From Ptychodera flava (lineage: Eukaryota > Hemichordata > Enteropneusta > Ptychoderidae): 64,000 nt of DNA. Position numbers and translations under genes: made by a program. This document shows, piece by piece, positions 9,170 to 61,764 of the stretch. The notes beneath the pieces were generated by a model. It was not told where the DNA came from. It saw nothing but the letters and a program-made list of their open reading frames with translations, and searched no databases. Numbering within the stretch: position 1 is the first letter of the stretch; each line of letters begins with the position of its first letter. The stretch lies in the NCBI RefSeq assembly GCF_041260155.1, contig NC_091930.1, positions 37,317,263 to 37,381,262 of the forward strand. Direction: 5' to 3'.

Positions 9170-10411
9170 ATGGAGACCAACTCAACAGAGCTGCCCTCAG
9201 ATTTGGATTGGGTCGGACTATTCAATGAAACTTCGGACGAATGGACCATACCGGGTCACTGGTACGTACACAAGTCAATCATCTACACATTGTACGGTTT
9301 GTGTATATTCCTGATCGTCACGGGTAACCTCATGGTCATAATCGCTGTCCTGATGGAACCAAAGTTGCGGCGGGCGCCCACCAACATCCTGATAGCATCT
9401 TTGGCCGTGTCCGACCTCTTGGTCGGTTCATACTACATACCTTCGGTGATCATGTGGGACGAAGCTCTGCATCTGATGCTGAATCCGACGATTTGTAACA
9501 TCGATGGTTTTATCCAGCTAACCAGCACCGGGGCCAGCGTTTTCAGTCTCATTGCCATCGCTTCCGATCGATTCCGAGCCATAGTGACGCCACTCAAGCC
9601 GAAGATCAACCGTTGCCAAGCCTGTATCATGGCGGCCATTGCCTGGGCATGCGCGATGAGTTACGCATCCTACATGCCGATCACGCGGGGATACCTAATG
9701 TACACTGAGACCTCCGGGAACGAAACCTACGTGACACCGTATTGCATCTTTCTTCCTCACGTTTCGTTCAAATTGGTCAGAACATTGGATTTTTTCGTCT
9801 TATTTGTGGTTCCGTTTTTGATTCTAAGTTGTTTATATGCCCCTATGGTTTATAAGCTCTGGTTTGACAAGCAACCTGCCAGTTCAACGGGATATAAGAA
9901 GAAAAACGCAGTGAAGACCCTATCAATGGTTGTGATACTATTCTTCACGATGTGGTTGCCGCACTACACCCTGTACCTCTACGTCCAATACGGGGACTTC
10001 AAGAACACTCGAGCGAATCTCCGGGCGGTGGCGCTGTTCGCCATCTGTCTAAACTTCTCAAACAGTTGGGTCAACCCGATTATATACGCGTGTTTCAACG
10101 AGAACTTCCGGTGCGCGTTCAAGAACACTTTACTCTGCAAAATCTGGCGGATATCCCGCAGGGTGTACCCGATATCCGACCCCGAGTCCGAGCAGGGCGA
10201 TAAGAATTGCGCCCTCAATGACCAACAGCCTGTCTCCTCCAGGAATACCATGCTGACGACGGCCAACACGACGTGTGGGCAGAGTATCGTGTCAACTATA
10301 CCGGCTGCGTCAGGGGCGGTTATTCCTCACCCTTCACCGACCATTGTTCCACAGAAACAACATTTACTGTCACCGAATACGTACATTCTGCGAGAAGATA
10401 GCTCCACCTAA
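9170..10411 (+). CDS. class A peptide G-protein-coupled receptor, NPFF/SIFamide/QRFP-receptor-like
   Basis: A 413-residue seven-helix receptor, expected in the plasma membrane and to signal through heterotrimeric G proteins on binding a peptide. Visible landmarks: N-glycosylation sites at N4 and N19; TM1 about 37-61 with the GN motif at N53; TM2 about 72-92 with LAVSD; Cys109 and Cys192, the usual ECL1-ECL2 disulphide; TM3 ending SDRFRAIV at 132-139; TM4 about 151-171; TM5 about 205-229 with FVVP; TM6 about 249-272 with FFTMWLP instead of the usual CWLP; TM7 with NSWVNPIIY at 298-306; then an 'NENFR' helix-8 segment and a Ser/Thr-rich tail. 'DRF' followed by 'PLKPK' is typical of NPFF-type receptors, so I favour that group, but the ligand is unknown. 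The whole coding region is in one exon; the ATG lies 9 bases after an acceptor (ttgttttag, AG 9159-9160), so a non-coding upstream exon is likely. Confidence 0.9.
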   Translation: METNSTELPSDLDWVGLFNETSDEWTIPGHWYVHKSIIYTLYGLCIFLIVTGNLMVIIAVLMEPKLRRAPTNILIASLAVSDLLVGSYYIPSVIMWDEALHLMLNPTICNIDGFIQLTSTGASVFSLIAIASDRFRAIVTPLKPKINRCQACIMAAIAWACAMSYASYMPITRGYLMYTETSGNETYVTPYCIFLPHVSFKLVRTLDFFVLFVVPFLILSCLYAPMVYKLWFDKQPASSTGYKKKNAVKTLSMVVILFFTMWLPHYTLYLYVQYGDFKNTRANLRAVALFAICLNFSNSWVNPIIYACFNENFRCAFKNTLLCKIWRISRRVYPISDPESEQGDKNCALNDQQPVSSRNTMLTTANTTCGQSIVSTIPAASGAVIPHPSPTIVPQKQHLLSPNTYILREDSST

Positions 10412-11610
10412 GTTTTTTTGTCGAAAGGGGAAAAAAGAGATGATGCTTTTAATTAAATGGTCGATAAAGGCGCTTTTTCCTCCGATTTGTTAGCTTGCTG
10501 TTATATAAACGAAACGACAAAAACTGGTACAAACATATGGAAAAAATTGTGATACTGAATTTGACTTTGATAAACTTTCTCTGGTACTGAATTTGACTTG
10601 ATAAACTTTCTCTGGAAACGCCGGTTTTGTATATGAAACTCATAATAAGTATGATGGAACTATTTGGGAATAACTGGAGCCCTATACAAGGGGGAAGAAT
10701 TGTGAGCAAATTTCGACTATCTCAATCATATCAAGCGTTTTCTATTTACTTGGAAATAATTACCATGTGCCAAGTTATTACTTTCTGTCCTCTTAAGAAA
10801 TTTTTCTCTCGTCAATTTTCCAGAAGTAGTTCCTATCGATCATTTATTCCTTGACCTTCTTAACTGTCCCCCGAGGCGTGTTGACAAAATGGTCCTGGAA
10901 GTCTGGTTTCTCACGTCCATTTTAATGTAAAAGGCATTGACAATTTCCACTCAGCATTGCTAGATATGTTCCTGTGGTGAAACACAATGAAAGTTTCAGA
11001 TTCGACAAATGGCGATATTCTAATGCTGCAGTTTGAAGACGGTCTTGTCGATATACTCTTTCCTTTCAATTGATGACTGCCTATGTCTGACTCATTGCAT
11101 ATCTGCACAACTCGGGTGAGAGTTTCTTAATCTTCATATCTCAAAACGATAAAAAGCCACATCCGGGAATTTTCTCTCTTTCACTTTAATAGCGGTCGTC
11201 TCCTAGATCACTCATAACAGACTAGTCGATATGTCATGATTTAAGAACAATGAGACAGTTCTTACACTTTTGTAAATTATAAAAAAAAATCAAAATTATC
11301 TTCAACCTGTAAAGATCTTCATTCTTTCTGAACTTGATATACTTATTTGCTACTTAAAAAGATCAATCAAGAACATGTCTGCTTGAAAAGTAACAAGACT
11401 GATAAGGGTTTATAATTGCTATATTGTTAAATGCTGATTCAAGATTTACTATTCCTCGGTCAAAACTGAACAAAAAAATTTACTCCAGTCTTACATCTTA
11501 TCCTGCCTTGTACACTAACAACATATTTCGCATAAAGCTTAAAGTGAAATATAAAGAATTGAAACAACACGCATTTTGTCTTCCATGTCTTCATATCTTC
11601 ACAAAGGCAG
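10412..11610. other. GPCR 3' flank and intergenic DNA
   Basis: AT-rich sequence after the receptor stop. A short imperfect direct repeat ('ctgaatttgacttgataaactttctctgg') occurs at about 10556-10615. No gene recognised and no clear canonical polyadenylation signal close to the stop. Confidence 0.4.
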
Positions 11611-11612
11611 AG

Positions 11613-12350
11613 TATGTATGTATGTATGTATGTATGTATGTATGTATGTATGTATGTATGTATGTATGTATGTATGTATGTATGTATGTATGTATGTATG
11701 TATGTATGTATGTATGTATGTATGTATGTATGTATGTATGTATGTATGTATGTATGTATGTATGTATGTATGTATGTATGTATGTATGTATGTATGTATG
11801 TATGTATGTATGTTGTATGTATGTATGTATGTATGTATGTATGTATGTATGTATGTATGTATGTATGTATGTATGTATGTATGTATGTATGTATGTATGT
11901 ATGTATGTATGTATGTATGTATGTATGTATGTATGTATGTATGTATGTATGTATGTATGTATGTATGTATGTATGTATGTATGTATGTATGTATGTATGT
12001 ATGTATGTATGTATGTATGTATGATGTATGTATGTATGTATGTATGTATGTATGTATGTATGTATGTATGTATGTATGTATGTATGTATGTATGTATGTA
12101 TGTATGTATGTATGTATGTATGTATGTATGTATGTATGTATGTATGTACGTACGTACGTACGTACGTACGTACGTACGTACGTACGTACGTATGTATGTA
12201 TGATGTGTGTATGTATGTATGCATGCATGCATGCATGCATGCATGTTTGTACGTGTGTATGGATGGATGGATGGATGGATGGATGGATGGGTGGATGGGT
12301 GGATGGTAAGGTGGGGTGATGGGTGGATGGATGGATGGATGGATTGATGT
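11613..12350. repeat. giant compound tetranucleotide array (TATG)n-(TACG)n-(CATG)n-(GGAT)n
   Basis: About 535 bases of almost perfect TATG (roughly 130 copies, with phase slips near 11813 and 12022), followed by TACG (about 12146-12191), CATG (about 12220-12244) and GGAT/GGGT (about 12259-12350). Because four is not a multiple of three, all frames are open and give meaningless Met-Tyr-Val-Cys or Ile-His-Thr-Tyr proteins. Confidence 0.98.
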
Positions 12351-12418
12351 GAATGGAAGGATGGGTTTCACATGCATATTCACGCGCATATATGTATATC
12401 TATTGGAATTTCATTAAC

Positions 12419-26533: not shown

Positions 26534-27547
26534 TTAACTTCCTTTGACGTTGAGATAAGTTGTTGCTATCGCGACGAAGGCGGAACTGAGTGTTATCAAC
26601 ACAGCCCCGATGGTGTCGTAGATATTGACTGTGTAATTGAAGACGGCGTAGTCGGCGAGATAAGCGACGAATATCTGCACATTCACCAGCAAAACAACAG
26701 TTGTTGGTGGTTCCAATTGTAGGCTTCGAAAGCGACATGAGAAGTTCAGAACAAAGGTCACTATAAGGCCGATAATCAACCCGTAGGTCACACTTGATAG
26801 CTTCCAGAGGAAACAATTCAAGGTGAAAGTTAGTAAACCGCTAATTATTGCCCCGATAGAATTCTCGTACAAGTTGATTATTAATACGGGAACGGCGTCT
26901 CCTAAGGCAGACCCAAGTATATAGGTTATCGAAAGGCAAAAACCACAGCCAACACTTAGTAAATAACCCAGCCAGGAGTTTTTGTCGCCGACGGTGATGT
27001 CATTTCCATCGCCGAATATGACACGAGGCTGGGAAGTCAGCAGAATTCCAGTCAGACAGAGAACCGTACTCACGAAGTGTATTTTTGTGAACGGTTCCTT
27101 TAGGAAGATTCTGGCCAATATGGAAATGACGATTGGCATGACACCGCGATAGATGGCCGTGACGTTGCCGACGGGTATCATGGACAGAGCAAACACTTGA
27201 CATATATCTTGCAAGGTATAGCAGACGCCCACCGACACCAGCAAAATTCGTTGACTCCACGTATCAACCGCGATCGATTTGACTCCGTAAAGGCAAAGAA
27301 TGAGCGGAGTTACCAATACAAGACCTCCTGTGTACATAACGAATAGAATCTGGAAGGACGACATGCCAGTTGTCGTTAAGAACGCTGAAATTGAGTTGTT
27401 GAACGCGTTAAAAATTCCCGCCATTAAGGCAAGACAAATTCCCTTTGCTGAACTGCAAATTTGGCAACCGAGGGATTTTGCATCATCTTTAGCGTGGTTG
27501 CTGTTGGTTCGCTTTTCCTTCAAGAGACGGTCTTCCTCTCTATCCAT
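26534..27547 (-). CDS. EamA-type drug/metabolite transporter, SLC35G1-like
   Basis: A 337-residue multipass membrane protein whose coding region is uninterrupted. I chose the ATG giving MDREEDRLL, because the frame upstream has only a GTG. The N-terminus is polar and cytosol-like (about 1-35), followed by about ten hydrophobic helices in two EamA halves. Conserved EamA features include 'GVCYTLQDICQVFALSMIP' and 'VTAIYRGVMPIVISILARI' with 'LKEPFTKIH' after it in the first half, and 'LEPPTTVVLLVNVQIFVAY' in the second. The substrate is unknown. Its 3' end lies about 160 bases from the edge of the foldback element, with no TTTATT (reverse polyadenylation signal) seen in between. A truncated duplicate lies upstream at 29.6-30.2 kb. 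Confidence 0.88.
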   Translation of the reverse strand: MDREEDRLLKEKRTNSNHAKDDAKSLGCQICSSAKGICLALMAGIFNAFNNSISAFLTTTGMSSFQILFVMYTGGLVLVTPLILCLYGVKSIAVDTWSQRILLVSVGVCYTLQDICQVFALSMIPVGNVTAIYRGVMPIVISILARIFLKEPFTKIHFVSTVLCLTGILLTSQPRVIFGDGNDITVGDKNSWLGYLLSVGCGFCLSITYILGSALGDAVPVLIINLYENSIGAIISGLLTFTLNCFLWKLSSVTYGLIIGLIVTFVLNFSCRFRSLQLEPPTTVVLLVNVQIFVAYLADYAVFNYTVNIYDTIGAVLITLSSAFVAIATTYLNVKGS

Positions 27548-27659
27548 GGTAAAAGTGTAATCACTGTTGCAGTGACGTTCACTAGATTTAGATTTGGCTT
27601 TACTCCGACAGAAAACCTCCCCTTCACTTGTCGCTCTAATTCGTTGTCTTCCTAACACA

Positions 27660-28432
27660 GAAATGTTGCCAATGTATCATCGTTATTTTTAACGCTGATC
27701 AATAGTCCTCACACTACAACTTCGTGGTAGTCATCCACGATTTACACAATAACCAGCGTCTGTCACTCAAGGCGTAAACCAGTCATCTTACCGAAAATTG
27801 AACGTGAATCCCAAAGCAACAAAATCTGCTGACCTAGTCAACTAGACTAGCAGAAAGCGTTCTCCAGTCAGTCCAGTCCTGCTCACCGGCATATTCGCAT
27901 CGGCATGACGAAGAAAGTATTTTTATAAGTGTGCCAGACAACATTCGTCATTTACTATTTTAGAGACACTGAACAAACAAAACATGACTCATTCTGAACA
28001 TTTTGTGATTAGCTTCTGGTATTTTTGGATTTTACTCTATTTATATCATGAACAGGGTGACGATCCACTATAATTAATATCAATAACAAAGAGAATTGCG
28101 CTCCTTTCTACAGAATAAAACAATGGAGGTCGATCTTTGTGCACAATTTGAATTTTTCGTTTCTGTAGTACCATGCTGTACATACGCCTATCTGATAATA
28201 GATATGTTTTCGGTTTAGGAAACATAATGTTTGTTGTCATTTATATTTTTCGGTTAAGACTAGGTATAATGAAATCCATTTGTATTAATTGAATATAATC
28301 ACTTTTATGTTGTTGACCTGAACATACATGGGAAAATAAAACTTTGGATCCAAATGTATGTTTTACTAATAATTGTTATCAGACACTTGATAGGTATCAC
28401 AGGGCGATATGAGTACCGTAATTAATTAGGAG
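27660..28432 (-). promoter_or_regulatory. upstream region of the transporter gene, part of a duplicated block
   Basis: Sequence upstream of the transporter ATG is recognisably related to 30255-31012 upstream of the pseudogene ('cctaacat/ca', 'gacctag', 'agaaagcgtt', 'tcagacaa.att.cgtca', 'ttatcagacactt'). Both copies therefore came from a genomic duplication rather than from a processed transcript. Confidence 0.6.
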
Positions 28433-29591: not shown

Positions 29592-30173
29592 CTAACCGTA
29601 GGTTATCGGAAGGTAAAAGCCACAGCCAATACTCGTGAGCAAATAACCAGGCCTGGAATTCTTTGCGCTGAAGTAGATGTCATTTCCATTGAAATCTCTT
29701 GAAATCAGCAGAATTCCTGTTAGACAGAGAACAGTATTCACGAAGTGTATTTTGGTGAAATGTTCCATTAGGAAGATCATGGCCAATATTGGAGTGATGA
29801 TTGGCATGACACCGCGACAGATGGCCGTAACGTTGCCGACGGGTATCATGGACAGAGCAAACACTTGACATATATCTTGCAAGGTATAGCAGACGCCCAT
29901 CGACACCAGCAAAATTCGTTGACTCCACGTATCAACCGCGATCAATTTGACTCCGTAAGGCATATGAACGTTACCAAAACAAGACCACATTTGTGTGCAT
30001 AATAAACATGATCGCTAAGAGTCTCTTAACGCATTAAAAAATCTCGCCATTAAGGCAAGACAGACTCCATTCGTTGATCTGCAAATTTGGCAACCGATCG
30101 ATTTTGCATCATCTATAGCGTGTTCGTTGTTAGTTTGCCTTCCGTTCAGAAGATCGTCTTCCTCTTTATCCAT
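29592..30173 (-). pseudogene. truncated SLC35G/EamA-type transporter pseudogene
   Basis: A decayed duplicate of the transporter at 26534-27547. The start (MDKEEDDLL) and the first about 50 residues are kept, then a stop follows 'ARFFNALRDS' and about 30 codons covering the first helices are deleted. Similarity resumes around 'LIAVDTWSQRILLVSMGVCY' and continues to 'SIGCGFYLPITY', where the copy is truncated. The second EamA half is missing. Non-coding similarity upstream shows it is a segmental duplicate, not a retrocopy. Confidence 0.85.
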
Positions 30174-31594
30174 GGTAAAAGTGTAATCGCTGTTGCTGTG
30201 ACGTTCACTAGATTTGTAATTGGACTTTACTCCGACGATAGGCCTTCCCACCACTTGTCTCTCTAATCCATTGTCTTCCTAACATATGCATAGAGGCGTC
30301 TCTACATGTACTGTCGTTATTTTAAACGTTGAATAGAAGTCTTCGTCAGGTATTCACTTGCACGAAGTCGACAACTTTGTGGTCTTCATGGAAGATTCAC
30401 ACGGTAACCGGCGTCCATCAGTTACGGCCTTCGTAGTCCGCTTAACGACAGGGAGGAACGTTAACGTGTCGCGCAAAAGAATAAAATACGCCGACCTAGA
30501 AAGCGTTTGTCCGTCATTTCTTTGCTGCACGCCAGCATTCAGATGGGGATGACCAAGTAAATAGTTTGTTGTATCAGACAATATAATTCGTCAATTGCGA
30601 TTTTGGAGACCTTGAAATAACCAAAAGTGTACACATTACTCATACTTTACCCATTTATACGGGAAAACGATGACGATTAACTAAAACTAAAATTAATATA
30701 ACATTGTATTCGAAAAGTTTTCAAGGCGATCCTTTCTAAAGAATACTACAGTATAGGTTAATTGTAGCCCACAAGAGGAGTTTTTCGTTTATGCGGTACT
30801 ATATACTAATTGTAATGAATATATTTTATTTAAGACTGAAATGAAATTCAGATCCTAAACGGTACAATCTATTGGCTTTAAAATACCCATCTTTTTATTT
30901 TGTCGACCTGATCATGTACAGTGAATTAAACTTTGACTCAAAAGATATTTTAAGTGTTATCAGACACTTTGCTAGGTATGACAAGACATAATATAAGTGC
31001 CAAATTTAATTACACTCTACGAGTTCTCGATATCTCTCAGACAAGAGTTTATCAAGTAAATCGAAGTTTTTTTATTCGTAGTTTTCGTCAGGTGTAAGGT
31101 ATTTAACGTTTTAAAATTTATACCACACTTAATATCACTCTTAACAACGATAAATACCGGAGACCTTTCATCGGGGATTGAAATTAATATATTTGCAATT
31201 TTCCCAAAGTTGTTTAAACTACTGCGTGTATACGCGGAAGCCAATTACAGAATCACATGAAATCATACCTCAGTGCGATCAAATTATATTGCGCACATGC
31301 CACGTTACCCCAGGGCCAACAATTAATGCACATATATATCAACTATCTTTTTTTTTCAAATATCAAATATTGAAAATATGAAAAGAGTGTTGCAGTTTGA
31401 AGAAGCTAATGATTGACCGTTGACATATAAAAACAAACTGTTTATTTCAAGAAATATTTTCAACTCGGGTGTTTGATGGCGTATCCCAGGATGCGTAGAA
31501 TCGATGCATCAAAAATGCACACTTTTTACACCTCAGTTATTGGAAAATGGGCGGCAGCTGGTGCTTGCCTCATAACTGAATTTTATTCGTTGCC

Positions 31595-31602
31595 TATATA
31601 AA
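31595..31602 (+). promoter_or_regulatory. TATA box of peptide gene P1
   Basis: TATATAAA about 70 bases before a consensus donor (cactttcgag|gtgagt, GT at 31671). This defines a likely non-coding exon 1 of about 31625-31670. Confidence 0.65.
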
Positions 31603-31624
31603 CACAAGACATTGAATTGATAGC

Positions 31625-31670
31625 TTGATATCATTGAGCTGATATTGAAGAATTGCCGAGCACTTTCGAG
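31625..31670 (+). other. predicted non-coding exon 1 of gene P1
   Basis: The start is inferred from the TATA distance; the end is set by the donor gtgagt. The exon 2 acceptor is tctcttacag (AG 32629-32630). Confidence 0.5.
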
Positions 31671-32184
31671 GTGAGTGGTTTTGTGTTGAAAAGTTTGAGT
31701 TTTTCAAGTGTGACTTTGGTAGTTAAAAACAGGTGATGGGCTACATACCAACCATTAACCATTAACAAGAAAAATTACGTGACATGTTTGTGAGAAAAAA
31801 ATCATCTTAGATTCGCCATTTGATGAGTTCGGTTTTTGCTATGACACAGTCGTTTGAAAATCAGGGGCCTCACAGACACAGATCGATTTGTGACTACGCA
31901 AGCAGTACACTAGTATGTCAGTCTTTATTTTTTTCTAAATATCAGTTTGAAACCCACTGCTATCGCGATCAATTCTTTTCTTCAATTGAGATTTGCCTAT
32001 CTTCATTGCCCTTACCAATACATTTATATACACCTGACTAGTAAAGACGGAAGTGCTACGTTGTACTAGTATCCATCCTGGAGTCATAAGCTTCAACGTT
32101 GTTTCAATAACGAAAATGTCATCATGGCTTCTTGTCAACAAAGTTACAGTGTGATAAATATCGGTAGACATGTCTATTCTAAAG

Positions 32185-32560
32185 GTAGGATGCGCCTCGG
32201 AGGTAAATCGATATTCGGGCTCCCAAATTTGTTCAATGACTTTCTAGTCCACCACTTGTTTGGGTCATTTTAAAGGTCTTTGTGTGGGCAGAGAAAACTA
32301 TTTCACTGTCTTAGTTTTTCGAAAATAGCAGATTATTCAATAGAGGTAGCACAGGAATGATGCCCACTTTGAATTTCAAATATCGGTAATTGTTAGGTAA
32401 TTATTTTCTATAGTATAAACCTTGGCATGGTGACCCCTTGATTGTTATTCTTGATTTGGCAAGTGAATGGTAGTATGTTTCATCTGGAAAGTTTGAGCAA
32501 AATGTTAAGTCTTTCACTTTCGATGAGCATACTACCTACATTGTTGTATCAACTTTTATA
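32185..32560 (-). repeat. dispersed repeat family R1, copy
   Basis: Reverse-orientation copy of the family seen at 34450 and 43755 ('gatgcgcctcgg', 'cttagtttttcgaaa', 'aatatcggtaa', 'catggtgacccc', 'aaagtttgagcaaa', 'taagtctttcac'). It lies within the first intron of P1. Confidence 0.75.
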
Positions 32561-32670
32561 CGGTCCGTTTATATTCAGCAATCGCGTTGTACATACTTAT
32601 CTACATAATGTGCAACGTGTTCTCTTACAGATACTGTCTCTCTCTTTCCAAAGAAAAGTCTGTGAGAAAG

Positions 32671-32895
32671 ATGAAACACCGTGCGATATCCTTTGTGGCT
32701 CTTTGCCTTGTTCTGTGTGCGCTGTATGAATCATCAGTTTCTGAAGAAATTCAACAACAACGTGAAATCGATCGACCAGCTGCAGTGAGTAAATAATAAC
32801 GTACATATGATTAATTAATTAATTATATGATTAATTGTAAGATTGCATCTATTTTGGGATAATATTTATCTGCCACAAAACCATGTATGTACGCA

Positions 32896-32931
<36 letters not shown>

Positions 32932-32932
32932 C

Positions 32933-32987
<55 letters not shown>

Positions 32988-33167
32988 AGTCCGTCCGTCC
33001 GTATGTATGTATGTATGTATGTATGTATGTATGTATGTATGTATGTATGTATGTATGTATGTATGTATGTATGTATGTATGTATGTATGTATGTATGTAT
33101 GTATGTATGTATGTATCTATGTATCTATGTATCTATGTATCTATGTATCTATCTATATGTATCTATG

Positions 33168-33201
<34 letters not shown>

Positions 33202-33438
33202 TGTATCTATGTATCTATGTTGTACATGTATGTGTACATGTATGTGTACATGTATATGTACATTTATGTATACGTGTGCAATGTATATTGACTTACTTAG
33301 TTCGTTACTTACTTTCTTACTTACTTACTTTTTGTTTCCTCTTAACAGTGTTTGCTCCACCCAGCGATACCATTCTGCGGTAAGAGGAACTCGGACACTA
33401 ATGAATTAGCGATGCAAGAGTCAGGGGATGAAAACTAA
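32671..33438 (+). CDS. peptide precursor P1: cyclic amidated peptide CLLHPAIPFC
   Basis: Two coding exons, 32671-32784 and 33349-33438, joined in phase 0 (donor gtgagt at 32785; acceptor cttaacag, AG 33347-33348). The 67-residue precursor has a basic start (MKHR), a hydrophobic signal core to about residue 22, cleavage probably near SVS|EE, and a short Gln/Glu spacer. The second exon then opens directly with CLLHPAIPFCGKR. Known processing rules predict cleavage at Lys-Arg, Gly used as the amide donor and a disulphide across an eight-residue ring. An acidic tail of 16 residues follows. The paralogue P2 has the same exon break and the motif C-[LF]-[LI]-H-P-x-x-P-F-C-G-K-R. The intron carries a TCTG/TATG array. 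A polyadenylation signal AATAAA lies at 33711-33716. I do not recognise the family; function is inferred only as secreted neuropeptide or hormone. Confidence 0.8.
32898..33225. repeat. (TCTG)n-(TATG)n array in the P1 intron
   Basis: TCTG tetramers (about 32898-32995) switch to TATG (33001-33115) and then TATC/TATG mixtures. The long open frames across it are artefacts and are not in frame with the following coding exon. Confidence 0.95.
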
Positions 33439-33765
33439 CATGCATAAATCTACCGATCTGAGTGAAATGGAGTAACAGATTTGACATCTGGAGCGGAGAG
33501 ACCTCTCAAGCATTTGTCATGACGTTGGAACGCTGTGTAGATTTGTACAACTACAAATATATGATTTGTGAGCTGAAAATCAAAGATATAAATAGATTTA
33601 GTTACATTTAATGTATTCAGTATATTATACATTATGTTTGCAGTTATTCACTTGCTACCATTAAATCCCAGTAATCAGCTTCCTTGTCACCCGCTATTTT
33701 TTCCTTATGTAATAAACATTATGCGTTGTTGTAACTGGCAAGTCAGGTAACAGTGACTACGCTGA

Positions 33766-33882
<117 letters not shown>

Positions 33883-34343
33883 AGGGAAGGAGACATACAG
33901 ACATAGAGACAGAGATTCTGATGATAAACTCCTGTGTACCGGAAATTCCCGGATCTGCCGAACATACCGGTAGAACGAAACGGGTGAAGACTAAAAAAGG
34001 ACGTACGTCAAACGCAGCTGACGAATTATTGAATACGATTTTGAGACGACGGTTTTGATTTACACCAACTCCTCAACAAGAGTGCATCAGGGACTTTGTC
34101 ATGTCAGGTCCACCAACCTCTACTACATAAGTTAACATTCTGTAGTAAATAAGAATAAAGCAAAGCAGATGGTGTACACTCGTTTTATAGTACACAGATT
34201 AGTTAAAAATGCTGGCCGTATATCAGCTTTTCCTTTGCATACATTGGTCAACTTTATAAACTTTCAAAGGCAAAACGAAGGACCGTAGACTGTGAAGGAC
34301 AACGAGGGAGCAGATGGGAGAACTTGAATTGCGTGCTGCGGCC

Positions 34344-34435
34344 TTAACCCTTTCACCACCATGGTTTGTCCAAAATCCATTGTTTTCTATGGTAAGTTGG
34401 ACCTGTATACAGGGAACTGGGGGTGAAAGGGTTAA
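34344..34435. repeat. 92-bp TTAA-flanked MITE
   Basis: Begins TTAACCCTTTCACC and ends GGTGAAAGGGTTAA, giving terminal inverted repeats inside TTAA duplications as left by piggyBac-like transposases. Confidence 0.8.
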
Positions 34436-34449
34436 GATAGTGAGCTCCT

Positions 34450-34790
34450 CGAAAGTGGAAGACAAACTTTTGCACAAAGTTTCCTTCAGGAATCTTTAAA
34501 CCGTTCCTTCTCAAAGTCAAGAATAAATATCAGGGGTCACCGTGCAACTTTTGTTACTAGAAATAGATTACCCAAGATTTACCGATATTTGAACTTCAAC
34601 ATGGCCCCATGCCTGTGTTAACTCTATGGAGAAAAATTAAATTTCCGATTTTCGGAAAACTAAGCCGGTGAAAGTTTTTCTTTCACCAAGAGCTTTAAAA
34701 TGAACCCCCACAAGTGGTAGATCAGAAAAGAACTGTTAAAGTTTGAGAGTCCGAATATCTGTCCCCGAGGCGCGATCTACCTCAAGGTAA
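34450..34790 (+). repeat. dispersed repeat family R1, near-complete copy
   Basis: Matches 43755-44105 over most of its length, including 'aagtggtagatcagaaaaga' and 'gagtccgaatatctgtcccc'. It ends in a 'gaggcgcg' block. Confidence 0.8.
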
Positions 34791-35494
34791 ACAATTAAAA
34801 AAGGAAGAAAAAATAAATGAATATGTTCCAAAAATGCGGTGATTGAGAAAAAAAGGGCAGTACTATACCGACATTGTCGACTGTTGATGAGACAAGCTAA
34901 CGAGACCGCGATAAAATATTAAATCCCTTAAAATTATGTACGTGTGTATATGTATGTCTGTGATGTGGAGTACCTCTCAAAATTAACCATCATACTGTTA
35001 TTTTAATCATACTTCATAATAGTGACAAACACTCTTCGCTGTATCGTACGGAAAGGTTGTAAGTTATGGAATCTCATTACACGTGAATTTCTAGTAGACG
35101 GGGTCAAAAAGCAGCGTGTTTTGTCAAATGTATTAGTCCAGGTTATCGCCAGGTTTGGGCTTACACTATGCGACACCAAAGCTAATGTTTTACTTTAGAG
35201 ACAAAATGCATAGAAGAATGGTCAGTTATAAGTCACTGTCATGACTTTTGTAGCCACTGTATTCTCAACTGTTACTCGGGTTCTGAAAGCACGTGTGGCT
35301 ATATCAAAAGGAGACGGGACGGGCGATAATAAAACGCCATCTTCACGAGCAGTGCACATACGCCCTTCTTGTTGATATGTTCAGGTTTTATGGTGTCTGT
35401 ATCCAGGGTGCTTTCACTGTAATTTCGAAATTCGTTTATGAAAGTTGAACATTTTAATTAAAACAAAGGCGGGAATGTGACCAGAACTATGCAA

Positions 35495-35557
35495 CAGCTG
35501 TTAACACCATAAACGCAACTTTATTAAAAAACAAGACACTTTCAGACGATATATAAA
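35495..35557 (+). promoter_or_regulatory. core promoter of peptide gene P2
   Basis: TATATAAA at 35550-35557. Upstream, CAGCTG (35495-35500) and TTTATT (35520-35525) are spaced like the P1 promoter (CAGCTG 31555-31560, TTTATT 31582-31587), with intermediate matches around 'CATAA'. Confidence 0.55.
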
Positions 35558-35579
35558 TGACAGGCTGGCGTACACCACG

Positions 35580-35619
35580 CTGCAGCTAACACAGTGAAGA
35601 AGACATCGATTGATTGCAG
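35580..35619 (+). other. predicted non-coding exon 1 of gene P2
   Basis: Ends at a strong donor (tgattgcag|gtatgt, GT at 35620). The next exon probably begins at 35843 after 'aactggcag'. Confidence 0.45.
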
Positions 35620-35873
35620 GTATGTTGATTTGCCATACGTTTTTTCTCCTGTAGTGTGAAGCTCTGGAGTCATCTCAAATTGAAGCATTTCTAAAGGAGA
35701 CCCGATACACTGTCCGTTGATGGCCCGACTGGCGTTGCAGTTCAGATCAAATGGACTTGTCAAGATTCAATCCTCTTGTCCGACTTTCACTCTCGCATTT
35801 CCTGATATGTGGTTTTTCTTCCATACAAACAACAACTGGCAGTTTGTAATCAAGACAGTGGGTTGCAACAACT

Positions 35874-37325
35874 ATGGAGGTCAAGTTAGTTCTCTGCCTA
35901 ACCCTTTGCTGCCTGGTGTCGTGTTCACTGTTCACCATTGCAGAGTCACGAGAAAGGCCGTATGGAGCCAACAAGCCAGCAGGGGTAGGTTGACAGATCA
36001 CTTCAAATTTTGAAACTCTCTGAGTCTTTGTACATACGAGTTTCTCTATCAATAGGCACTACAATTCGTGCATATTCGTTTTGTTAGCAAACCTCAATAC
36101 GTACGTAAAGAATTACCGACGGCTAAAGGCAATCTTTTCTGCTAAATAGCCACGGGTTTATTGCAAATATTCGTGTTGTCATGGACATCTTGATATCATG
36201 AAAATTCATTTTGTAAGGGCTGAAACATTTAAAATGTGATTGTAATGTTTGCGGGCAAGTAGTAAAGACAGAAAGACAGAGACAGCTAGCTATCTGAAGA
36301 TAACTTGAGTGTGCCTTGGGAACAGTATTTCGGGAACTCAGAGTTTTTACAATGTATTTCTGATCAGCGGCTTGTGTCAATGCAAGTTGAAGTGCCTTGA
36401 GAAAACGAAGTTGTACCACTTTGTTTTTGTAAACATAGAAAATTTTTATTTGTTTTCATTAACTAAACATAGGGCACAGCGGCCATTCCAAAATCGGGAA
36501 ATTTTAGAAACATTTTTTTCTCAAATACCAAACTTGGCAGGATGGCACTAACATTTGTATCTTGATCACGATGAAAACGGTGTACATGCACGCGTGGTCG
36601 GTAGGTTCTAACCGGCCTGCTACATAAAATATATGTGGTGAAGACTTATTAGCGTATCATTTGCAGACGTACTAACATCTTGATCAGGGTCTTAAGCAAC
36701 CAGCTGTCTTGCCTTCATGAGATGATCCATACAGAACAGATGCATGGCATTGTAGGCTGCGTTCACAAATAATGGGGGGGGGGAGGTCGCTATTGAATCT
36801 TGATTTTTTTTTTCAGATCTCCCTCCCGACTGGCACAGTTTCATTGGACAAAATGCTTGATATACGTTCAGTATATTTACGTATATTGACATATATTGAA
36901 CACAATATTGATTGCATACGTATCGTATATCCTAAAGTTTGTATATGGAACATTCCAATACGTTGATATGCGTAGCGTATATCTATGTAGATCATGTGTA
37001 TACGTAATGCAGATTTTTGCACACCAAGTGTACACCTGTAGTTTTGCATTTTGTCCCCAGTGTTTGTAATGTAGAATTTCCCCGAGGACAGATTAAGTAA
37101 GGGTTCGAAACCTCTTTCGAGCTATGTATTGCCTCACCAGAACTCAGTAAAAGTGACGCATATAGTAAAGGTGACGAGTAACTGTTTCTTATTATTCTAT
37201 TTCTGTCGTCTGATCAGTGCTTCATCCATCCCTTGGCCCCCTTCTGTGGCAAGAGAGGATCATGGGATACCTTGGATACGGACAGTGACGACACGGCGGC
37301 CGCCATTACTCGAGATGGAAAGTGA
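35874..37325 (+). CDS. peptide precursor P2: cyclic amidated peptide CFIHPLAPFC
   Basis: Paralogue of P1, 2.4 kb downstream on the same strand. The two coding exons, 35874-35984 and 37218-37325, join in phase 0 (donor gtaggt at 35985; acceptor tgatcag, AG 37216-37217). The precursor has 72 residues: signal peptide MEVKLVLCLTLCCLVSCSLF plus TIA, a basic spacer with RERPYGANKPAG, then CFIHPLAPFCGKR at the very start of the last exon, and an acidic 22-residue tail. As in P1, Gly-Lys-Arg predicts dibasic cleavage and C-terminal amidation, and the two Cys predict a ring of eight residues between them. AATAAA lies at 37504-37509. The signal peptide and tail have diverged strongly from P1 while the ten-residue core is kept, as expected for a peptide hormone. 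Receptor and function are unknown. Confidence 0.8.
36846..37056. repeat. MITE-like element in the P2 intron
   Basis: Terminal inverted repeats 'ggacaaaatgc' and 'gcattttgtcc' enclose about 190 bases rich in 'gtatat'/'atatac'. It lies 160 bases before the coding exon of P2. Confidence 0.5.
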
Positions 37326-38444
37326 CTGATGCTAGCGCTGTCGCTTAAACGTGGACCAACCAGGTGGCGGGATAATCGGAATCTTCACTAAACCGACTGT
37401 GTTTTATTGAGAAAATGCAAATCAGACGTAAATTCCGTTTCCATTTCACTATACTCGTTATACATAACGCTGGCACGTAGCAAAAGATACCACGCGCACG
37501 TCAAATAAATAATTTTACGACTATGAACTTGCTATGACTGTAAGGTGTCTTTATTGTGCACGGATACTAGAGGGCAGCCGCAGTTTCTCACCATTTTACG
37601 TTTCAGTATAATACCGGAAGTCCGGTCACTGTTTCAGTTGTTTGTCTGTTCTGATGGTAATCGAGACTGAAGGTGCTTTTTACAACCACGTTAGTATTTT
37701 TCGGGTATTTAGAAACATAAAGAACTTTTCAATTGATCCAAAATTGATGTAAATAATGTCCGGCCTACAAGCAAATAAGAAGGTAAAGATCATTCAGAAA
37801 GGCCAGCCAAAGGCGAACGAAAGAAATATTATTTTAGTTTTATTATCTAATTCGGTAAGTCAGTGAGCGTTTGAAAGAAAACTCAAAATCTACCGATGAT
37901 TTAACATTATACGCTACTTGTAGATGCAAAAGTCTCTTATCTGTATCTCAAAAAAGTCACAGTACTGAATTAATGTCGACCGATTTTAAGTTTATTTACG
38001 GTTCCTCTAAGTTCCTTCCGTCATGGCAGGTCGATTGCAAAATTGTGCTCATCAAAATGTTGGACATGACCAGATTTTGCCCTTGCACTAATAACACTTA
38101 TTGAATAAAATACACGAATTTTAATGTACCTTTCTTCGAACACAGCATTTCCTTAAAGTAGTTTAACCAAACATTTCTAACCATCGTCAGAACGAATGTT
38201 AAATATAATCGCACGAAGGCAAAACACTGACCTCTTCCGTCAGTATTGTAAAGTCGTTCGTTTTCATGCTTGCAAGGTCTTTCCAGGCTAAAAAGACCGG
38301 ATACAGTTTTACTAAACAGTCATTAAAGTATTATTGCTTGTCGACTTTAAGGTCATTTTTAGAGTTTTACAACGATGAATTATCTACAATAGAAATACCC
38401 CGAAATGGAAAATTGCAGAGGTCACATTCATCTCTCTGTGTTTG

Positions 38445-55372: not shown

Positions 55373-58300
55373 ATGAACTCGAAATACTTCGTCGTCGGAT
55401 TGCTGGTCATGTTTGCTGTACTTTCAAGTTTCCAAACCGAGGCATACAGGCTGTCGGACGTGGTAGAAAAGAGAGCATCAAATGGACGTATGTTATCTCC
55501 ATTTTCTCCTTAACGTTTAGCTTACTACTGTCTTTGCATGCCCTCCCATGATGTTTCTCTCCATTTGAATCGTCATCGGACACAAGTGGGTTTTTTTGAG
55601 TAACTAATACCGAAAGAAAAAAAAATTGGATTACATGTTTATCACAATCATGAATATTGTTTGATGAGGAAAAAACATATAAAACGGGGCGCGCGATGTG
55701 TTTTTTTTTATTCACCGGGATTACTTTCTGTTCGACGACTGGAACGTCCCGTCTACCAGAAGATACTTCTATTCACTCATATCTGATCTCATACAAGTTG
55801 AAATTTTGATACATAGTGTGCCGTCTTTACGAATAAGAACTTGTCAAGCATTATCTCGCGCTTGGCTGTCCTAACCGCCCGAGCAAGTCAGTCATCGGCA
55901 GGCAGGGACCGTACTTCGCGGTGTACCGTCACTGTAATCAAAGTTTTTTGGACACTTTGAAAACGAATATTTAACTAAATGTTACGACGAAAAACTTGAA
56001 ACAGTCTTTCTCGTCCAAGAGGATGTGGTAGCTTCATAAGTTCTCAAACTGTCGATCAGGATTAGCCGGGAAGAGGCGTTTTGATAGCACACACAGACGA
56101 GCTCATTGCAGGCTATGACCACAGGGCTCATAAGTGCCTGTTTAAGTCAATATACAGCGTTTTTCTTTCTTTTTCAATGTTACAAATAAAGCTGAAGAGC
56201 ACAACATTTGTGTAGCTGTCTTTTGTGTAGCTTGTATTGGCATGTATAGTGCGCCCTCAATGGGGAATGTGATCATATGTAAATACGACCTTTAGTTCCG
56301 TGACCTCTAGCCAATTCCTCTGGCCATGCCTTCTGGCCACGTGTACAGACGTCGCTGTGTCATAGCGAGGGCAGGGCAGGAAGTAGGCATGGCTAGAGCC
56401 GGGCCTAGAGGTCACGGAACTAAAGGTCACATTTACGAGGACGCACTATACATGCCAATACACGCTACACAAAAGACAGCTACACAAGTGTTGTGCTCTT
56501 CAGCTGGATTATTTGTAACATTGAAAAAGAAAGAAAAACGCTGTAATATTGACTTAAATAGGCACTTATGAGGCCCTGTGCTATGACCGTCGCCACCGCA
56601 ATCGCCACTTCCCGGGACCATCCCCGTGCTGTCTTTGTCACTTCTGTCAGCACGTCGATGTTTACGTTGCGCATATTGCAGTGTCAAATGTCCCATACAT
56701 TGATGCTTTCAAAGAGACAGACAGACAAGCACTGCCAGGCAGACATGACAAAAACAGAGAGAGACAGAAAGAGAGCGAGACTTTAAGACACGCAAAGACA
56801 GAAAGCCGGAGAGAGCGAGACAGTAAGACTGACATAGGTAGACAGAAGGAGAGAGAGATACTGACACAGAAAGAAACCGTAACGTAAGAAGTTTGCGCGC
56901 ACTAGACTGCAGTTGTTGTCGGATCGTAGATATTCCTAATATAGAATTTGTGGCATCCGATTCGGATTGGATCGGGACTTATACATCAGTTCTTTGTTTT
57001 AAATACTGGAAAATATGGTCCACTGTATTTAATTAAATTTGGGTTTTCTTTTCTTCAGTCTGTTACAAAGACGACATTGGTATGGTCTGTGACAGATGCG
57101 AGAACCCCAGAGTCTGTATGCCTCAGTAAGTACTTGCCAAATTTTAGAAATGGCAGCGTTGATGTGATGAACAAATTACTATGTAGATCAATTCTCTTGC
57201 TTTCTTTGCTTTAGAAGAGTATTACAATGACTTTCGAGTACAATTTGTTATTTTTCCTTGATGTTGTATGACTTGTATCTATCTGTAACGATAGGTGGAT
57301 AAAAGTAAACAAAGTTGTGTTTTTACAGTAAAAAATTGGCCGACTAGCGGGAAATACAGTACTCGTTAAAATAAAGAGCAAAGTTAAAACAAATACAGTA
57401 AAATACTAACCGACCAGCGGGAGATAAAACACTTGCAAAGCAGAGAATAAAAAGCGCAGACGTTTCGGGTGCAACCCTTCGTCAGTACTAAAAACTCGCT
57501 AGAGAAACGTGAAAACACAAGAAAGAAAAACAGCCAATCAAACAAGGGAACGATCAAACGCGTTAAAATATGCATTCATACCGGCTGGTGCCAGAGTACC
57601 GAGTCTAAAAATAGTGGCCTGTTCGAGTTTATGGCGGGTAGAGTCTGTGGTGGAGATTATAGCCGACACTGCCATGTCGGACCGACCGCGGTGGGGTGGT
57701 GTACAAAAATGCTTGGCCACCGGATATGCGAGCTTGTTGTCGGTCACAGTGCGAAGATGTTCAGCAAAGCGATCGCCTAGGCGACGCTTTGTTTCGCCAA
57801 TATATAGCATGCTGCAGCGTCTGCATTTGATACAATAGATGATATTAGCCGACGTGCATGTGAACACGCCGGAAACATTGACTCTACCACGCGGGCCCTG
57901 AATGAAGTTGGTTGTAAAAGTATGTGGGCAGGTGTTACATACTCGACGGCCACATGATGATGTTCCAGTAGCACAATCGTGATTAGGTAAACTGGAACGC
58001 ACCAGCCGGTCTTTGATGTTCGTGTCACGTCGAAATGCCATGATGGGAGGTACGGAAAAAATATTCTGTGTGTTGGGGGAGTTGGTTAAGATGGAAAACT
58101 CCTCAAAGATGATTTTACGGATTCTATGATTATCATTTGTAATTTTTATAGTCTATTACCACTGCGTCTCGCTTTTTATCTTTCCGTTTTACCTTTCGCT
58201 TTTAACCTTTCATGATTGTGTGTGCTTTATTCGTCTTGTGCTTCAGTGTCCACGTCACTACGGGGTCAGTCTGTTTTCGCTCATCCACTCCCGGTTTTTT

Positions 58301-61300
58301 ACGTCGTGTCTCCGCGCTTCCGAGTTTTGCCCGCGTGTTTTTCGTGACCGCGTCCTGCTTCAACTATGCCGTCTATTAAACAACTTGAAACTCGGTCTTT
58401 ATCATCTGTGAAAACCTTTTTGTCCTCCTTGCATCCTGACGTCAGCTCCCATGGCTTCAGATTGGCCAAATACACATTTGCAAAAACCCGTTTCTGTAGT
58501 CATGTCTCCTTTCTTTCTACATGCAACCGTAACCGTTGCTTGCCCTCTGGTTTCAATATTCACGTACAGCCGTCCATTTTTACACCAGCTGATTCTCATT
58601 ATCGTCAACGTATACAATTCCTGTCTAACAAATTTTCTTGGCAGTATTTTAGAGTTACTCTCAATCACATGCGTCAACGTGTTTCTTTTTTTACAACTTC
58701 TATTTGTCAAACGAAACGCACTCTTTCCTCTCTTGTAGCACCCACCACTTACAGGAATATCATACAATACATACGTAAGGAAAATGAGTCTCTTCACAAG
58801 TTTTTAACATCTCAAAAGTTAAAAAAGATTCAAAACTTGGTTGATAAATTTCCGACAATTACTCGACAAAACACCACGCCGAATTCATCGCAAATCACAC
58901 CTGTTGTCACCATTCCTCCCGACCTGCCCCTTTCAGATTCCGAACGTTCTGTTCTGTCGAAAGGGTTGAAATTCATCCCTCTCCGTAACTCAACCGACGA
59001 ATTCACCTCACGTCACGATGTGCATTCTTTCTTTCGCCGTTTACGCTTGAAGGAATTTTTTCATGAACGTCAATCAGATACGACTGATGACTCAGCAGCT
59101 AATGGTTCCGACAATGGACCCAACCCATATTCTACCAAATTAACATCAAACGCGAGTCCTTTTGGACTCCCCTTCAGGACGTAACCCCACACTTGATCTC
59201 TACATCAACATTTGTCAACACAGAATTAACCGCCTGATCAACAACACCAGTAAATCAAAAACACACAATATCTCTAAAGCTGAATACAAGGCTCTGCGCG
59301 ATTTATCTCGCAACGATAACATAATAATTAAGCCTGCCGATAAGGGAGGGGCTGTGGTAGTATGGCGTAAAGATTTATACATTACTGAGGCACAAAGGCA
59401 ACTTTCTGACACATCTTTCTATAAACATCTTGACACCGACATCACCAATAAACACAATAATATCGTCAAACGTACAATCAGTGATCTAGTTCATGATAAA
59501 CTTCTGCCCGACGATGCAAAATCATTGATCATCTCACATCCACACACGTCCCGTTTTTACTTACTACCCAAAATCCATAAAACCGGTAATCCTGGCCGCC
59601 CCATTGTCTCTGCATGTTCCTGCCCCACCGAACTTATCTCAACATTTCTCGACAATATTTTTGCCGGCATCGTGAATACCCTCCCCACTTTTGTCAAAGA
59701 CACATCTCATGCCGTCAAGATGTTCTCAACAGCTTTAAGTTTACGGGTACCCATAGATATATATTTACACTTGATGTTAAGGCTCTCTATACTTCCATCC
59801 CTCATAAGGATGGTCTCCAGGCACTCGCATATTTTCTTGACCGACGTGACGTTATGGATCCACCTACAAACGTTTTAATTCGCTTAGCTGAATTAGTGCT
59901 AACTTTAAATTGCTTCACCTTTAATAGTGAATTTTACACACAAGTTCGCGGTGTTGTCATGGGTACACGGATGGGACCTTCTTACGCTTGTTATTTCGTT
60001 GGTTACATCGAAAAACAGATAATACAAACATATACCGGTCACATTCCCGAGCTCTTTAAACGGTATATTGATGACTGCTTTGGTGCAGCATCTTGTTCAC
60101 GCACAGAATTAGATAATTTTATTGATTTCGTTTCACATTTTCACCCCGCACTGGAATTTACTTCCACTATTTCAGACATATCAGTTGCATTTCTTGACAT
60201 ATCAGTTTATATCAATGAGGACTCGCTGTCTACCTCCATACATTATAAATCCACAGACTCTCATGCATATGTTCTATACAGCTCAGCTCACCCCCGTCGG
60301 TGCAAGGAATCCATTCCATTTTCACAGTTTCTACGCGCTCGGCGCATTTGCTCTGACCAAAAGGATTTTGAGCAGCAGCTTGACACTATTAGCACTTGGT
60401 TCTCGGCTCGGGGTTATCCCCGCTCTGTAGTGGACAAAGCCAAAGAGCGCGTTGAACCATTAACGCAGGAGGACGCGTTAAAGTCAACTACCCGTTCTCA
60501 AGGCGATCGCATTCCTCTGTATTAACATACCATCCTTTTAATCATAGAATCCGTAAAATCATCTTTGAGGAGTTTTCCATCTTAACCAACTCCCCCAACA
60601 CACAGAATATTTTTTCCGTACCTCCCATCATGGCATTTCGACGTGACACGAACATCAAAGACCGGCTGGTGCGTTCCAGTTTACCTAATCACGATTGTGC
60701 TACTGGAACATCATCATGTGGCCGTCGAGTATGTAACACCTGCCCACATACTTTTACAACCAACTTCATTCAGGGCCCGCGTGGTAGAGTCAATGTTTCC
60801 GGCGTGTTCACATGCACGTCGGCTAATATCATCTATTGTATCAAATGCAGACGCTGCAGCATGCTATATATTGGCGAAACAAAGCGTCGCCTAGGCGATC
60901 GCTTTGCTGAACATCTTCGCACTGTGACCGACAACAAGCTCGCATATCCGGTGGCCAAGCATTTTTGTACACCACCCCACCGCGGTCGGTCCGACATGGC
61001 AGTGTCGCTATAATCTCCACCACAGACTCTACCCGCCATAAACTCGAACAGGCCACTATTTTTAAACTCGGTACTCTGGCACCAGCCGGTATGAATGCAT
61101 ATTTTAACGCGTTTGATCGTTCCCTTGTTTGATTGGCTGTTTTTCTTTCTTGTGTTTTCACGTTTTCTCTAGCGAGTTTTTAGTACTGACGAAGGGTTGC
61201 ACCCGAAACGTCTGCGCTTTTTATTCTCTGCTTTGCAAGTGTTTTATCTCCCGCTGGTCGGTTAGTATTTTACTGTATTTGTTTTAACTTTGCTCTTTAT

Positions 61301-61764
61301 TTTAACGAGTACTGTATTTCCTGCTAGTCGGCCAATTTTTTACTGTACTCCTTCACACTTGCTGCAGTTTTTATCCCTCTTTTGAGGTCATTTGTAATTT
61401 TTATTGTGTTTCTGCAGCTTGTAACACCGCTCGGAAAGTAGGAGGTATCCCGTCTTTCACTATCTAACTTGCAAGAAAATGTGTAGACATAGCGTGGGTT
61501 TCAAAAATGTTATAAGCGATATAGGGTAGAGGAACAAAATAATGTCAGGTAGACTAGGTTACAGGACATGTGTTTGTTTGTTTGTGTATTTGTTTGTTTA
61601 GTTTTCTCTTCGCTGGAAGTGGCTCATTTTATAAGTTGAATCTTAAGCGCTATCATCAGCCTAAGAATAGGAACGGCATTATAGTACTTGCCGTACTAGT
61701 ACATATAACAGAATTCAAATCTGCCCATTTCTATTTTCTTTGTAGGGGTGCGTTCCAAGGGTAG
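55373..61764 (+). CDS. peptide precursor B: four-cysteine amidated secreted peptide
   Basis: Paralogue of gene A with the same exon plan: coding exons 55373-55487, 57059-57125 and 61746-61764, phases 1 and 2 (donors gtatgt at 55488 and gtaagt at 57126; acceptors ttcttcag and tttgtag). The 66-residue precursor has signal peptide MNSKYFVVGLLVMFAVLSSF ending near QTEA, propeptide YRLSDVVE, Lys-Arg at 33-34, then ASNGLCYKDD and the C-x8-C-x2-C-x5-C framework, ending CMPQGAFQG. The middle exon encodes exactly the same residues as in A, with three nucleotide differences, all silent, whereas the signal peptide has diverged and the tail differs by Pro to Ala. Intron 2 carries a palindromic MITE; the last coding intron (4.6 kb) is mostly a Penelope-like element. 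AATAAA lies at 62288-62293. Confidence 0.85.
56120..56580. mobile_element. palindromic hAT-like MITE with target-site duplication
   Basis: Terminal inverted repeats begin 'cacagggctcataagtgcct' on the left, with an almost exact complement on the right. Inverted similarity extends inwards over about 170-190 bases per arm ('gacctttagttccgtgacct'). It is flanked by a direct repeat ctatgac(c) at 56113-56120 and 56581-56588. CAGGG-type ends and a 7-8-base duplication fit the hAT superfamily. It lies in the intron of gene B. Confidence 0.85.
56700..56880. repeat. degenerate GACAGA/GAGA-rich stretch
   Basis: Imperfect purine-rich simple sequence; the frame across it is low-complexity. Confidence 0.6.
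57459..57485 (-). ncRNA. hammerhead ribozyme core, left arm of the Penelope-like element
   Basis: Exact inverted copy of the motif at 61186-61212: CTGACGA, a 4-bp stem II (GGGT/ACCC), then GAAACGTC. Hammerhead motifs are a known feature of Penelope-like elements. Confidence 0.6.
57538..58041 (-). CDS. GIY-YIG endonuclease end of a Penelope-like element, inverted left arm
   Basis: A 167-codon frame on the minus strand starting MAFRRDTNIKDRLVRSSL. It includes a Cys-rich region (CGRRVCNTC) and the GIY-YIG core 'NIIYCIKC' then 'MLYIGETKRRLGDRFAEHL', and runs intact to a stop after 'FNAFDRSLV'. It has lost the reverse transcriptase that normally precedes it, so it is only part of the original ORF. 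Confidence 0.85.
   Translation of the reverse strand: MAFRRDTNIKDRLVRSSLPNHDCATGTSSCGRRVCNTCPHTFTTNFIQGPRGRVNVSGVFTCTSANIIYCIKCRRCSMLYIGETKRRLGDRFAEHLRTVTDNKLAYPVAKHFCTPPHRGRSDMAVSAIISTTDSTRHKLEQATIFRLGTLAPAGMNAYFNAFDRSLV
58366..59184 (+). pseudogene. Penelope-like ORF, N-terminal region
   Basis: A 272-codon frame beginning MPSIKQLETRSLSSV, followed by a basic region preceding the reverse transcriptase. It leaves frame near 59175, where the reading continues one frame over ('NPTLDLYIN'). It is therefore the first segment of one ORF broken by an indel. Confidence 0.75.
59162..59745 (+). pseudogene. Penelope-like reverse transcriptase, fingers region
   Basis: Second segment: contains 'IIKPADKGGAVVVWRKDLY' and 'FYLLPKIHKTGNPGRPIVS', the early RT motifs of Penelope-like enzymes. 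Homology leaves this frame at about 59730-59745, just before motif A. Confidence 0.85.
59728..60525 (+). pseudogene. Penelope-like reverse transcriptase, palm and thumb
   Basis: Third segment: motif A 'FTLDVKALYTSIPHKDG' with its aspartate, 'GVVMGTRMGPSYACYF', the catalytic 'YIDD' in 'FKRYIDDCFG', then 'RRCKESIPFSQFLRARRICS'. The catalytic aspartates are kept. A stop at 60523-60525 ends this frame, while homology goes on one frame over. Confidence 0.9.
60522..61013 (+). pseudogene. Penelope-like GIY-YIG endonuclease, right arm
   Basis: Fourth segment: linker 'LTYHPFNHRIRKIIFEEFS', then MAFRRDTNIK and the GIY-YIG core as in the left arm. One base is missing near 61009 relative to the inverted copy, so the frame stops at 'DMAVSL' about 40 codons short of the left-arm version. 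Confidence 0.88.
61186..61212 (+). ncRNA. hammerhead ribozyme core, right arm of the Penelope-like element
   Basis: CTGACGA (core box 1), GGGT-TGC-ACCC (stem II with a three-base loop), GAAA (box 2) and ACGT-C (a minimal, self-complementary stem III followed by C at the expected cleavage site). Flanking 'agta' and 'tgc' can form a short stem I. This fits the minimal, possibly dimeric hammerheads reported from Penelope-like elements. Activity is inferred. Confidence 0.65.

Follow-up and report, generated by a model that had tools for sequence, protein, structure and literature searches.

Two tandem genes of the hemichordate Ptychodera flava predicted to encode related cyclic, amidated secreted peptides

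In studies of how neuropeptides evolved, hemichordates take a place next to echinoderms, between the chordates and the protostomes. According to published text, Saccoglossus has predicted elevenin-like receptors and no elevenin precursor (PMC10175484), and hemichordates have somatostatin/allatostatin-C-type receptors and no identified precursor (PMC8851493). We analyzed a 64,000-nucleotide stretch of the Ptychodera flava genome (contig NC_091930.1, positions 37,317,263 to 37,381,262 of the forward strand; hereafter the window) that contains two small neighboring genes whose precursor layout is like that of both elevenin and CCHamide-1/excitatory peptide (EP). Taken as a whole, the evidence suggests that they are probably tandem paralogues from an old duplication, encoding secreted peptide hormones or neuropeptides. 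A pair of conserved cyclic, amidated peptides would provide short, easily made candidate ligands for elevenin-like and somatostatin/allatostatin-C-type receptors, although the sequence favors none of these receptor classes strongly.

Both genes lie on the forward strand, with coding regions from 32671 to 33438 (gene 1) and from 35874 to 37325 (gene 2). Splicing gives the product MKHR...AACLLHPAIPFCGKR...DEN (67 amino acids) from gene 1 and MEVK...PAGCFIHPLAPFCGKR...DGK (72 amino acids) from gene 2. The same precursor layout was found in 2/2 genes: signal peptide, short arm, C-x8-C ring, Gly-Lys-Arg and acidic tail. The features of the two units are as follows.

31597 to 31602, forward strand: probable TATA box of gene 1 (TATAAA), with a donor (GAG/GTGAGT), read by eye, about 70 bases further on.
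32631 to 32784, forward strand: gene 1 exon with the start codon ATG at 32671, the signal peptide and a 14-residue arm; the exon start was placed by eye.
32671 to 32784, forward strand: first coding exon of gene 1.
32785 to 33348, forward strand: gene 1 intron, GT-AG, phase 0, directly 5' of the first Cys codon, containing a tetranucleotide array.
33349 to 33438, forward strand: last coding exon of gene 1.
33349 to 33387, forward strand: gene 1 ring CLLHPAIPFC (33349 to 33378) and GKR amidation and cleavage signal (33379 to 33387).
33388 to 33438, forward strand: acidic C-terminal tail of gene 1, 16 residues, net charge -5, then stop.
33711 to 33716, forward strand: probable polyadenylation signal of gene 1 (AATAAA).
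35552 to 35557, forward strand: probable TATA box of gene 2 (TATAAA), with a donor at 35620 (GCAG/GTATGT) that scores 6/7.
35874 to 35984, forward strand: first coding exon of gene 2, with the signal peptide and a 14-residue arm.
35985 to 37217, forward strand: gene 2 intron, GT-AG, phase 0, directly 5' of the first Cys codon.
37218 to 37325, forward strand: last coding exon of gene 2.
37218 to 37256, forward strand: gene 2 ring CFIHPLAPFC (37218 to 37247) and GKR amidation and cleavage signal (37248 to 37256).
37257 to 37325, forward strand: acidic C-terminal tail of gene 2, 22 residues, net charge -4, then stop.
37504 to 37509, forward strand: probable polyadenylation signal of gene 2 (AATAAA).

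This anatomy, shared by both genes, agrees with the initial annotation of the window, which had proposed a tandem pair, a signal-peptide exon in each gene and a single peptide copy followed by Gly-Lys-Arg. The 12-residue hydropathy of the N-termini peaks at 2.9 in gene 1 (residue 6) and 2.8 in gene 2 (residue 5), and each product has the predicted N-terminal signal peptide of a peptide hormone precursor, with the cut placed by eye. A second mark of such precursors, a Gly with a dibasic site, follows the ring as GKR in 2/2 genes. The first non-coding exons of both genes were drawn by eye. The pair had been given outer limits of 31595 and 37509, and the TATAAA at 31597 and the AATAAA at 37504 fit these limits. 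Such hexamers at the unit ends are weak evidence, because they also occur elsewhere in the region (6 TATAAA and 7 AATAAA in total over the examined stretch).

Analysis of the reading frames revealed that neither precursor can be read without splicing. The unspliced first coding frames stop at 32796 (gene 1) and 35993 (gene 2), at most four codons past the donor, and the peptide frame is closed upstream of the first Cys, one codon away in gene 1 and 12 codons away in gene 2. Because the unspliced frames are closed on both sides of the intron, each precursor is possible only as a spliced product. The proposed junctions, 32784/33349 and 35984/37218, proved to be GT-AG and in phase 0 and give the peptides that had been claimed, and in 2/2 genes the last exon begins with the codon of the first Cys. 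The acceptors are preceded by pyrimidines at 15 of 18 positions in gene 1 and 13 of 18 in gene 2.

The pattern C-x8-C-G-[KR]-[KR] matches exactly twice in the six frames of the window, and the two matches are these two genes. When the window was resampled 200 times with a first-order Markov model, the mean number of such matches was 0.04 and the maximum one, and 0/200 resamplings contained two motifs. A relaxed six-frame scan of the window for C-x(6-10)-C-G-[KR] found no further copies of the peptide; the other matches, at 60696 (forward strand) and 57975 (reverse strand), lie inside two copies of a mobile element.

We compared the two precursors residue by residue, counting from the by-eye signal cut. 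Positions 1 to 11 share 1/11 residues and positions 12 to 27 share 11/16. Among the codons of the 11 identical residues in this 16-codon block, 3 are the same and 8 differ synonymously. A blastn comparison of 31400 to 33800 with 35350 to 37650 returned a single match, an opposite-strand stretch of 35 bases with E 0.2. Synonymous codon changes within the block, where the surrounding DNA barely aligns, argue for selection on the peptide, as had been proposed for the core. The duplication appears to be old, since silent sites have diverged and the block has been kept while the flanking DNA is nearly unalignable. The sequence itself shows the gene anatomy, the need for splicing and the selection on the block. 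The earlier view that the spacers cannot be aligned needs a correction next to the ring: [KR]-P-A-[AG] directly precedes the first Cys in both genes, and both have 14 residues between the by-eye signal cut (before EE in gene 1 and ES in gene 2) and the first Cys.

These arms bear on the mature peptide, which had been taken to have ten residues. We did not find support for this length: the first Cys has no basic residue immediately ahead of it, and [KR]-P-A-[AG] is conserved as well. The peptide should therefore start further upstream, most simply at the site of signal cleavage. If the cuts fall before EE and ES, the mature form in each gene is more likely to have about 24 residues than ten. 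The calculated [M+H]+ values of the amidated, disulfide-closed forms of genes 1 and 2 are 2774.386 and 2657.286 for 24 residues, 1349.686 and 1369.654 for 13, and 1110.559 and 1144.543 for ten. We infer expression, processing, ring, amide and receptor as follows. Cleavage by signal peptidase would free the N-terminus of the peptide, and a prohormone convertase would cut at the Lys-Arg after the ring. The basic residues would then be trimmed, conversion of the Gly would leave the second Cys amidated, and a bond between the two Cys would form a ring enclosing eight residues. The product is predicted to be about 24 residues long, its N-terminal arm free and its C-terminus an amidated ring, [KR]PA[AG]-C[LF][LI]HPxxPFC-NH2. 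By analogy with how such peptides act, its target may be a rhodopsin-class G-protein-coupled receptor.

A small secreted cyclic peptide is also compatible with a role outside signaling, as a skin or gut peptide in defense or mucus. We regard this as quite unlikely, as the amidation signal, the dibasic site and the single-copy layout are peptide-hormone features and the predicted peptides, by their letters, are not strongly cationic.

Searches for relatives gave no family assignment, in agreement with the initial annotation, which had matched the peptides to no known family. A profile of both precursors searched against a collection of 5.8 billion proteins gave 9 candidates, and a query of both cores with three invented variants gave 13 candidates from the same collection; none of either set reached E 10 or better. 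Neither precursor matched a Pfam family at E 10 (0 families for 2/2 precursors). The PDB sequences gave two matches with E 1 and 4.7, neither of which looked related, and tRNA and Rfam scans of the window found nothing. The conserved copies expected in related animals were not found among predicted proteins. In published text on hemichordate and Ptychodera neuropeptides and related families we found no description of the peptide, with figures, supplements and most subscription journals outside the scope; the one paper in which six fragments of the peptide sequences gave a text match deals with medical student numbers and is irrelevant. The available sections of the studies of Saccoglossus neuropeptides (PMC10508912) and of xenacoelomorph and ambulacrarian neuropeptides (PMC6188537) mention none that fits.

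Several points weigh against the interpretation of the pair as paralogous hormone or neuropeptide genes. The signal cuts and the 24-residue length were judged by eye. The coding donors score 4/7 on a simple consensus, and they do not prove splicing because 19% of the GTs in the window score as high. In addition, the protein collection holds proteins of P. flava, Glandiceps talaboti and Saccoglossus kowalevskii and yielded neither the precursors nor a relative. Public gene prediction seems to have missed both genes. An intron at the first ring codon, together with products below 75 residues, is a way in which such genes may stay hidden. The absence from the collection and the moderate donor scores would also suit unexpressed remnants or a chance reading, which we consider very unlikely given that no resampled window held two motifs, that the conserved codons have changed synonymously only, and that both genes are open and alike in anatomy.

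We retain two paralogous genes for secreted signaling peptides as the probable interpretation. The peptide family looks like one not described before. Features that define the elevenin, CCHamide/EP, somatostatin/allatostatin-C, melanin-concentrating hormone (MCH) and bombesin types are missing from it. More tentatively, and with slightly less than even confidence, we propose a new hemichordate signaling family that is orthologous to no described neuropeptide family, with the amidated ring C[LF][LI]HPxxPFC-NH2 as the active part and a receptor that has no known hemichordate ligand. Elevenin-like, somatostatin/allatostatin-C-like and bombesin-like receptors would be the first candidates.

The window also contains a rhodopsin-class receptor gene without introns at 9170 to 10411 (forward strand; Pfam 7tm_1, E 5.5e-39). 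It is closest to a P. flava QRFP-like peptide receptor (80% identical), followed by proteins of Glandiceps (68%) and Saccoglossus (64%); another P. flava copy is 57% identical. This gene lies about 21 kb upstream of the pair, and we did not adopt its product as the peptide partner, nearness alone being counted as no evidence. On the reverse strand there is an intronless EamA-family transporter gene at 26534 to 27673 (E 2.8e-22) and a shorter related EamA open frame at 29592 to 30014 (E 6.6e-10), apparently a partial copy. Long arrays of GTAT and GTCT-like tetranucleotides occupy 11406 to 12400 and 32880 to 33230, the second of them inside the gene 1 intron, and both produce large spurious open frames on both strands. 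A mobile element spans 57324 to 61347, with a reverse-transcriptase match (RVT_1, E 5.4e-7) in the frame 59590 to 60525. Its inverted arms, 57324 to 58132 and 60539 to 61347, are 99-100% complementary in three joined pieces. The arm frame is presumably GIY-YIG/Penelope-like; Pfam gave no match for 60456 to 61013.

We compared the pair with the known families of two-Cys peptides. CCHamide-1/EP (GGNG) and the echinoderm CCHamide-like/bombesin-type peptide Arnp25 have an aromatic residue and a His inside the ring, as the two peptides do here. However, CCHamide/EP peptides carry Gly-Gly or Gly-Ala between the second Cys and the amide, whereas here Gly-Lys-Arg comes immediately after the second Cys, and we rejected membership for lack of these residues. 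Arnp25 is described with four residues between the Cys, compared with eight here (PMC4772807). In bombesin-type genes a phase-1 intron is reported to interrupt the peptide, and a second intron, of phase 0, to lie in the C-terminal part (PMC12002301). Membership of this type was also rejected, as the intron here is in phase 0 before the ring and a further coding intron is not needed.

All elevenins have eight residues between their Cys, as in 2/2 genes here (PMC10175484), and a Pro two residues before the second Cys (the conserved P13) at the same place. The elevenin peptide directly follows the signal peptide, again as here. Elevenin genes have an intron within the peptide-coding sequence, which would apply here only to a peptide of 24 residues; the elevenin intron has been likened to a phase-2 intron (PMC6585902), whereas the intron here is in phase 0. 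The pair could be hemichordate elevenins of a derived kind, in which the CRG tail was lost and an amide acquired, and could supply the ligands that the elevenin-like receptors predicted in Saccoglossus, a species with no precursor, still lack. The ring size, the Pro, these receptors and, for a 24-residue peptide, an intron within its coding sequence speak for this. However, the elevenin residues D5, F11, R16 and G17, reported as conserved and needed, are all absent: here A or G precedes the ring, A or L stands at the place of F11, and G-K follows the ring. Elevenins are also not amidated and end in the consensus CRG, whereas both genes encode CGKR. Ring identity with Aplysia elevenin is 1/8 and 2/8, and when the same ring residues are permuted, 56% and 26% of the resulting orders match as well; Pro falls at the elevenin-like place in 25% of ring-residue permutations. 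On the residues and the CGKR we rejected elevenin membership, and a derived elevenin origin is unlikely.

Peptides of the somatostatin/allatostatin-C type (echinoderm SS1 and SS2) have a disulfide ring, which is predicted here too. A phase-0 intron in the N-terminal part, as described for this type (PMC7536072), is matched here, but this is weak evidence because the phase is common. That the pair encodes the missing hemichordate ligands of the receptors of this type is most improbable. The receptors are present and their precursor unidentified, as noted above, and C-[LF]-[LI]-H-P bears a loose likeness to the F-x-P motif found in allatostatin-C-side peptides. However, the described peptides occupy the C-terminal end of their precursors and have FWK/IWK or FXP often, not in every member (PMC8851493), whereas here tails of 16 and 22 residues follow GKR. 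LLHPAIPF and FIHPLAPF contain neither FWK/IWK nor FXP, and the allatostatin-C ring has six inner residues where these have eight. Membership was rejected on the tails and the absent motifs.

The ring of vertebrate MCH has eight inner residues, equal to the ring here. The initial annotation had set the pair apart from MCH, and comparison with the ambulacrarian MCH-type as described by Semmens 2016 (PMC4772807) agrees. These peptides have two Cys, as here, but their ring is two residues longer, with Met or Ile after the first Cys and a basic residue in the position penultimate to the second Cys, and they have a C-terminal place in the precursor. None of these features is found in the pair, and we rejected this type. 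The vasopressin/oxytocin type was set aside, as the tails are far too short for neurophysin. We take [LI]Hxx[IA]PF to resemble part of vertebrate ELABELA, and [FL][LI]HP angiotensin, likenesses too short to weigh.

The starfish peptide Arnp24 (PMC4772807) and the crinoid PCNP3a/b and PCNP19 (PMC9793003) are described as amidated two-Cys peptides that have been placed in no family, and the pair here is predicted to be of this kind. PCNP3a and PCNP3b are related to each other, as are the two genes of P. flava. Arnp24 has dibasic sites before and after it, whereas here such a site stands only after the ring. One of Arnp24, PCNP3a/b and PCNP19 might prove a relative.

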